Positions 5,114 to 32,215 of a stretch of DNA of 32,215 nt are shown in pieces; within the stretch, counting starts at the first letter, position 1, and each line of letters starts with the position of its first letter. The notes under the pieces are model-generated. The model ran no database searches, was not told the DNA's origin, and saw only the letters and a list, made by a program, of their open reading frames with translations. Source of the stretch: a virus; IMG/VR virus record IMGVR_UViG_3300020197_000093, positions 1 through 32,215 of that record; one strand, 5' to 3'. The position numbers and the translations under genes are program-made.

Positions 5114-5121
5114 TATTTATA
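5114..5121 (-). promoter_or_regulatory. Late promoter box TATAAATA before tail-fibre gene
   Basis: The minus strand has an exact TATAAATA, 34 bases upstream of the ATG at 5080. It lies in the 46-base gap after the 104-aa gene. A ribosome site (AGGA) follows it before the start. Confidence 0.72.
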
Positions 5122-31449: not shown

Positions 31450-31457
31450 TATAAATA
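31450..31457 (+). promoter_or_regulatory. Late promoter box TATAAATA (rightward)
   Basis: An exact TATAAATA on the plus strand ends 23 bases before the ATG at 31481. With T4-like spacing the transcript would start near 31464, giving a leader of only about 17 bases. Confidence 0.72.
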
Positions 31458-31480: not shown

Positions 31481-32020
31481 ATGGATCCCAAGGATATTCG
31501 AAATCTCGTAGAGTCTTATCAAAACGTATATGCTGAACAGGAAGTTTCAGAAGATATGTACAGCACTGTCAAGGGAGGTCTTGAAAAAGGTGCTGAGGCA
31601 TTAAAGAACAGCCCCCGACTGGCTGGAGCAGTGAAATTTCTCGTTGGACCTGTGGGAAGTAATAAAGGAAAAAGAACTCCTTCCAAAAAAGATCAAAATA
31701 GAAAAATCAAAGCGAACGAAGATGTAGAACTTTATAATATTGTATTCAATCACTTGATCGAAGAAGGTTTCGCATCATCTGAAGAGAACGCTAATAAGAT
31801 TATCAGTGTGATGAGTGATGAGTGGATTTCGAGTATTGTTGAAGGTGTTGGTGGATATGATGATCCATTCATGGGACCACATACGCCAATGGGAAGGGCT
31901 GTTCGGTCGGGACTCAAGGCAGCAGGAAATGTTGCAACCCAAGTTGTAAGAAAAACAGTCCCACCAAATATTCGCAGCGCAGTGGTGAAGAAAGTACAAG
32001 AAATAGGGTCTGGAAACTAA
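31481..32020 (+). CDS. Putative internal head protein with CTS-like leader, 179 aa
   Basis: Residues 1-25 (MDPKDIRNLVESYQNVYAEQ, then EVSED) are nearly the same as the start of the next gene's product. A helical domain follows at ~80-121 (DVELYNIVFNHLIEEGFASS ... MSDEWISSIVE), a pattern I recall from small proteins of marine T4-like phages. Residues ~46-77 are basic (KGKRTPSKKDQNRKIK), and the C-terminus (RAVRSGLKAAGNVATQVVRK) should form basic amphipathic helices. The leader resembles the T4 capsid-targeting sequence, with L-V-E at 9-11 as a possible prohead-protease site. No Shine-Dalgarno precedes the ATG. A head-core or injected role is inference. The gene is expressed away from the baseplate block from its own late promoter. 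Confidence 0.8.
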   Translation: MDPKDIRNLVESYQNVYAEQEVSEDMYSTVKGGLEKGAEALKNSPRLAGAVKFLVGPVGSNKGKRTPSKKDQNRKIKANEDVELYNIVFNHLIEEGFASSEENANKIISVMSDEWISSIVEGVGGYDDPFMGPHTPMGRAVRSGLKAAGNVATQVVRKTVPPNIRSAVVKKVQEIGSGN

Positions 32021-32033
32021 CAGGAGTAAAAAA

Positions 32034-32215
32034 ATGAACACAAAAACAATTCGCAATCTTCAAGAAGCATATTCAGATGTTTATGCATCTCAAGAACTTA
32101 CTGAAGACCAAATATGGGAAGAAGTTGAAAACTGGGTTAATGCTCTTCTAGAAGAAGGTTATGACTTAAGTGATTATACCTGGGAAGAAATGTACGAGGA
32201 GTGGAAGCAGAGTAT
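32034..32215 (+). CDS. Second CTS-like leader protein, cut by window edge
   Basis: The visible 60 codons begin MNTKTIRNLQEAYSDVYASQ and continue ELTEDQIWEEVENWVNALLE, then EGYDLSDYTWEEMYEEWKQS. The first 25 residues share 15 identities with the previous protein. The second part, with LLEEGY and EEW, resembles the IEEGF...DEW segment of that protein. AGGAG lies 7 bases before the ATG, and the gap to the previous gene is 13 bases, so the two are cotranscribed. The rest of the gene is outside the window; similar marine phage proteins that I recall continue into long variable or repetitive tails. Function is unknown; an internal head protein is the best guess. Confidence 0.83.
   Translation, partial: MNTKTIRNLQEAYSDVYASQELTEDQIWEEVENWVNALLEEGYDLSDYTWEEMYEEWKQS

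Follow-up and report, generated by a model that had tools for sequence, protein, structure and literature searches.

In bacteriophage T4 the protease gp21 is active in the prohead only, and residues 4 and 7 of the internal protein IPIII are aromatic. The propeptides removed by gp21 are 10-19 residues long; in IPIII, targeting is influenced by residues 4 and 7 and processing by residues 8 and 10 (PMC9026906). In the giant phages phiKZ, 201phi2-1 and SPN3US too, head proteins have N-terminal propeptides that a gp21-like protease cuts after Glu, and many proteins are ejected (PMC9026906). The T4 core proteins gp67 and gp68 are missing from cyanophages (PMC2984593), which makes a different core chemistry plausible in these phages. 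Among the open-licence papers that our searches turned up, none gives a description of the leader considered here or mentions capsid-targeting sequences in cyanophages by name.

The DNA analysed (hereafter the window) is a virus record of 32,215 bases, a fragment of a T4-like cyanobacterial phage whose relatives are cyanophages, mostly Kyanoviridae. Its minus strand encodes baseplate proteins (PHROGs baseplate wedge families), and these genes adjoin, on the opposite strand, ORF1 and ORF2 at the right end (Table 1). ORF1 has relatives with 83% (L006) and 76% (L007) identity, and its whole-protein search of isolate phages gave mostly weak matches; the relatives of ORF2 are 290-590 aa long and have a C-terminal module C plus a basic tail. 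No credible relative was found in the Pfam and PDB searches. In the AlphaFold2 model of ORF1, which is low-confidence overall (mean pLDDT 61.7), residues 3-18 are helical, the C region forms helices (block pLDDT 82-89) and the remainder is low-confidence.

Table 1. Features at the right end of the window (a slash within a motif marks the predicted cut)
Feature	Position	Strand	Remarks
T4-type late promoter TATAAATA	31450..31457	+	31 nt upstream of ORF1 start
ORF1	31481..32020	+	179 aa; leader joined by a basic linker to module C, then a basic tail
ORF1 leader	31481..31555	+	residues 1-25; helix 3-18 in model
Predicted gp21 site LVE/S, ORF1	31513/31514	+	between residues 11 and 12
ORF1 module C	31730..31843	+	residues 84-121; ends in second gp21-type motif IVE/G
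ORF2	32034..32215	+	60 aa read; cut off by contig end
ORF2 leader	32034..32108	+	residues 1-25
Predicted gp21 site LQE/A, ORF2	32066/32067	+	between residues 11 and 12
ORF2 module B	32118..32204	+	residues 29-57; helices 24-41 and 50-59 in model

The sequence-only reading of this locus had claimed that the two proteins share 15 identities in their first 25 residues, and the comparison bears this out (M1, K4, I6, R7, N8, L9, E11, Y13, V16, Y17, A18, Q20, E21, E24 and D25), M1 being the fifteenth beside the 14 that it named; the placing of LVE/S and LQE/A at residues 9-11 was likewise correct. A search of the genome with ORF1 finds ORF2 (E=1.1e-4) over residues 1-27 only. Outside the leader family, at least 15 ungapped identities occur in 2 of 50,221 within-genome pairs of N-termini. 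Three adjacent gene pairs of related genomes also have 15-20 identities, and by their N-termini these look like tandem duplicates. The further claim that most of the sequence after the leader differs holds for residues 26-60, with one identity in an ungapped comparison. It needs one qualification: since complete relatives of ORF2 carry module C, as does ORF1, the two are modular relatives and not strangers with the leader alone in common.

A search of viral contigs with ORF2 gave 76 loci. Early counts of leaders that had been chosen by pattern were circular, and were replaced by a count in which proteins were collected through module B (WVNxLLEEGYDLSDYTWEEMYE) or module C (YDxxxxHLLDEGYADTEEAAxxIMxxMSEEWxxSIxE) and their N-termini read afterwards, so as to avoid selection on the leader. 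Of the 92 distinct N-termini collected in this way 74 are leader-like, in an alignment that still uses a leader profile and a fixed Tyr anchor (P2' Y). The consensus is LxE[AS]YxxVY: P3 is L, M or I in all 74, P1 is E in 70, P1' is A or S in 71, P5' is V or I in 73 and P6' is Y or H in 71, P2 being free. The leader is a real family, carried by dozens of otherwise different proteins in related viruses. The bodies behind it contain much proline, alanine, lysine and arginine and hardly any cysteine, and their net charge per 100 aa is +9.3, against -21.4 for the leader, B and C modules.

One explanation for such sharing would be mere inherited homology among paralogous late proteins that stay unpackaged and work in the infected cell. 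Complete relatives often have leader, B and C together and tandem copies are common, as this would predict; yet the bodies between the modules do not align with one another, the leader is also found on L2 bodies (described below) that have no module C, and one leader protein, ORF89 of S-SCSM1, is labelled a virion protein. We therefore hold this explanation to be very improbable.

Some proteins of these phages carry the modules in other arrangements. P-SSM2_140 (L004:19998-20153) is a stand-alone module C of 51 aa encoded between uvsY and uvsW. Leader-like motifs (SLADAYRAVYSEEA, WGDAYASIYE) repeat inside L147:7977-9449 (ACG-2014f 263) and L159:3092-4492 (the RN05-S virion protein). S-SZBM1_194 (L084:23253-25376), with 707 aa and located beside the small terminase gene, has a module B and a far-internal FITYREFIAEG that closely resembles the T4 leader, and is possibly a polyprotein processed within the head.

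The predicted gp21 site is not confined to the leader, as gp21-type motifs repeat at the ends of B and C. We counted [IL]xE[AGS] in 71 unique leader proteins, with the expectation obtained by shuffling, and found 67 in leaders (6.5 expected), 59 in B (8.5) and 84 in C (15.3), counts that are inflated by common descent; nor are the related genomes independent of each other. In the other 16,764 residues, those of the bodies, there are 6 against 13.9 expected, a depletion across 140 body segments that is moderate and less affected by common descent. Per 1000 aa the motif occurs 8.9 times in leader proteins, 11.5 in the scaffold gp22, 2.4 in replication proteins and 0.5 in tail proteins, so that leader proteins resemble gp22 in motif density, unlike replication or tail proteins. 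The major capsid proteins of these phages have an FLxE[AS] motif within residues 31-80, which is the expected gp23 site.

It could nevertheless be argued that the leader docks proteins to the prohead core without being cut at E/A, the conserved unit being the helix L-x-x-x-Y-x-x-V-Y, with E-A as helix surface and any processing elsewhere. Y13, V16 and Y17, past the site, are as conserved as the site itself, P1 is not E in 4 of the 74 leaders (K, L or Y stands there in some), and in L3 relatives the hydrophobic pattern persists although E-A is missing (LGFLYENI). The conserved Y, V and Y would count against a cut propeptide, since a classical one would not need them. Against docking without a cut, P1 E and P1' A or S are each kept in about 95% of leaders though P2 is free, and the motif, though scarcer than expected in bodies, repeats at the ends of both B and C; we regard such docking as unlikely.

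By promoter sequence the leader genes are late genes. TATAAATA is the T4 late promoter and also a cyanophage late promoter, and NATAAATA has been described as the cyanophage late promoter (PMC2984593). In six long contigs or genomes, TATAAATA precedes 16 of 18 leader genes at a distance of no more than 60 nt, and likewise none of 85 replication genes and 64 of 1501 other ORFs, a comparison whose p-values overstate independence, the genomes being related. Several of these leader genes have replication genes for neighbours, with nrdB adjoining or with gp46 on one side and a peptidase gene on the other, and thus their neighbourhood does not explain the promoter. Counted over the whole window, TATAAATA is no commoner than chance would give (5 copies, 4.2 expected); only its placement before genes is informative. 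On the minus strand it occurs at window positions 5114, 5794, 15433 and 29605, each time 24-41 nt ahead of a minus-strand ORF start, which is consistent with these four sites being late promoters of structural genes.

Tandem cargo genes are found downstream of nrdB in these phages, and the second of them (L2) begins in most relatives with a T4-type leader, such as MKSFSQFLEES in S-SRM01 and MKSFREFMIEA in G004. In G006 a matching L2 body (48.5% identity over 301 aa) has in front of it instead the AYxxVY leader followed by B. L2 in G006 represents one clear event of leader exchange. On L3 bodies the AYxxVY leader is found in L012, L022 and L047, and elsewhere another N-terminal helix (LGFLYENI type) takes its place. 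This third N-terminal type, MSRISQDFINxLGFLYENI (L054, L033, L037 and L003:22631-24229), keeps the hydrophobic spacing of the leader and not its E-A cut motif. The L2 cargo of S-SRM01 (L003:21245-22588) and of relatives also has a hydrophobic Gly/Ala-rich stretch, GGLLGGTAGAIGGGGLLSAATGTAGAMAGG, which might insert into membranes.

Proteome support comes in the first place from the T4-type leaders. Of the 6 S-CREM2 proteins with such a leader, 5 appear on the published list of virion proteins, compared with 47 of the other 213 (p=0.003), and in this phage T4-type leaders do mark virion proteins; in S-SZBM1 one of three was detected in the virion. The five S-CREM2 proteins are the SAM hydrolase, the APH-like kinase, the cytidylyltransferase, gp13 and gp136, and the leader could explain the packaging of the virion enzymes and unknowns of this phage. 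These begin with T4-type leaders (MKDFDSFLEE, VKRFDAFLTE, MKNFSSFLTEA), and the Cas9-like protein of S-CREM2 has one after a short extension (PLRFASFMAEA); the proteins observed are gp6, gp13, gp14, gp136 and gp154 (L148, L085), and also gp12. S-CREM2 has no protein with the AYxxVY leader, B or C, so its proteome gives no direct test of that leader; a suspected relationship of S-CREM2 gp111 to S-CRM01 gp292 was rejected, as there was no significant match.

For the AYxxVY leader, fold matches of the low-confidence ORF1 model, which we used as a lead only, pointed to ORF89 of S-SCSM1. This protein starts MDSKTFNSLSEAYAAVYS. It carries the leader and module C, its gene has a late promoter, and the record labels it 'virion protein'; no other such leader was found in S-SCSM1 in a scan of all start codons of the genome. 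The label presumably reflects the mass spectrometry of the corresponding paper, in which 45 proteins were detected against 48 virion labels in the record (PMC9602691), and it is good but not final evidence for an AYxxVY leader protein in the virion. A second leader protein labelled as a virion protein occurs in RN05-S (MSSSMRNFMEAYAAVH), the label possibly having been copied by homology. The match of phrog_2667 (internal head protein) to one leader member (E=0.006, no stretch passing on its own) was too weak to use. ORF89 and S-IOM18 SWYG_00152 (L161:1124-3010) have in common a basic module, GKHGQSxxEYADSRSxGGKMVSGDSKMSGAEYTHGRRVKAANPG, which 246 phage records match. Proteins with this module are named cytidyltransferase in some records, a name that looks misapplied, the true enzyme being the neighbouring gene.

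The sequence-only reading had also proposed a marine-phage leader that loads varied cargo into the head. The shared leader on many different bodies and the one labelled virion protein favour the loading of varied cargo, although the label does not place the protein in the capsid; 'marine' proved too narrow, as S-SRM01 comes from a reservoir and S-CREM2 from an estuary. The leader might also be thought to send proteins elsewhere in the virion, to the neck, tail or baseplate for instance, given that the ORF89 label is silent on place in the particle and that baseplate genes adjoin the leader genes in the window, though on the other strand. This we find quite improbable in view of the prohead-only activity of T4 gp21, the scarcity of the motif in tail proteins compared with leader proteins and gp22, the replacement of a T4-type leader by the AYxxVY leader on the same cargo, and the basic bodies, which are as expected beside packaged DNA. 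The capsid location of the leader proteins is one that we infer.

We consider it fairly likely that the leader acts as a propeptide for loading proteins into the prohead, equivalent in function to the T4 capsid-targeting sequence though unlike it in sequence, and that gp21 cuts or releases it. Its probable role is to dock cargo within the growing head, and it probably bears a site at which the head protease cuts. The leader would be a short amphipathic helix whose hydrophobic stripe, to judge by the spacing, is formed by P6, P3, P2' and P5' or P6', and this helix would dock late-made cargo on the scaffold core, its supposed partner. The protease gp21 would then cut L-x-E/A or L-x-E/S between E11 and residue 12, in the middle of both helix and stripe, breaking the docking helix and leaving the basic body free alongside the DNA within the head. 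B and C look like additional docking modules, also acidic, with a site of the same type at their ends, and by analogy the cargo could be delivered into the next host cell. It is possible, if doubtful, that cyanophages, lacking gp67 and gp68, use a modular loading code in which the leader helix and repeatable B and C modules, each ending in a gp21 site, would dock a wide variety of basic or membrane-like cargo to the scaffold and then be excised, filling the head with injectable proteins.

If the propeptide reading is true, it would provide a sequence rule telling which of the many 'hypothetical' proteins of these viruses, abundant in oceans and lakes, go into the head, where the proteome papers of these viruses leave undecided whether proteins are carried by the virion or are contaminants, and there would be a second head-targeting tag besides that of T4.

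Among known families, PHROGs 3708 and 27516 match the leader plus B, and 3708 again, along with 22522, matches the C-bearing region of relatives, none of them having an assigned function. By description, the giant-phage propeptides, N-terminal and cut after Glu, resemble what is predicted for the AYxxVY leader; those phages are not Kyanoviridae. The likeness to the T4 capsid-targeting sequence, which had been proposed from the sequence, stands in part. Like that of IPI, IPII and IPIII, the AYxxVY leader is N-terminal with about 10 residues before an (I/L)xE site, and as with the T4 internal proteins it is common to cargo with different bodies, these being basic and their genes late; the exchange with a T4-like leader and the one virion label point the same way. 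Unlike the T4 sequence, it has no aromatics at positions 4 and 7 in ORF1, ORF2 or the consensus, its conservation runs about 7 residues past the predicted cut (Y13, V16, Y17), which makes the element a longer helix, and it comes with the extra acidic modules B and C. Given the first two of these differences, the AYxxVY leader does not by its sequence belong with the T4 capsid-targeting sequence. Nearer to T4 are the MKxFxxF[IL]xE leaders on cyanophage virion enzymes (cytidylyltransferase/NMNAT, SAM hydrolase, APH-like kinase), which occur in the same phages with the same site and which, unlike the AYxxVY leader, have the proteome support of S-CREM2; the two kinds replace each other on cargo L2, yet their sequences differ (MKxFxxF against LxEAYxxVY).
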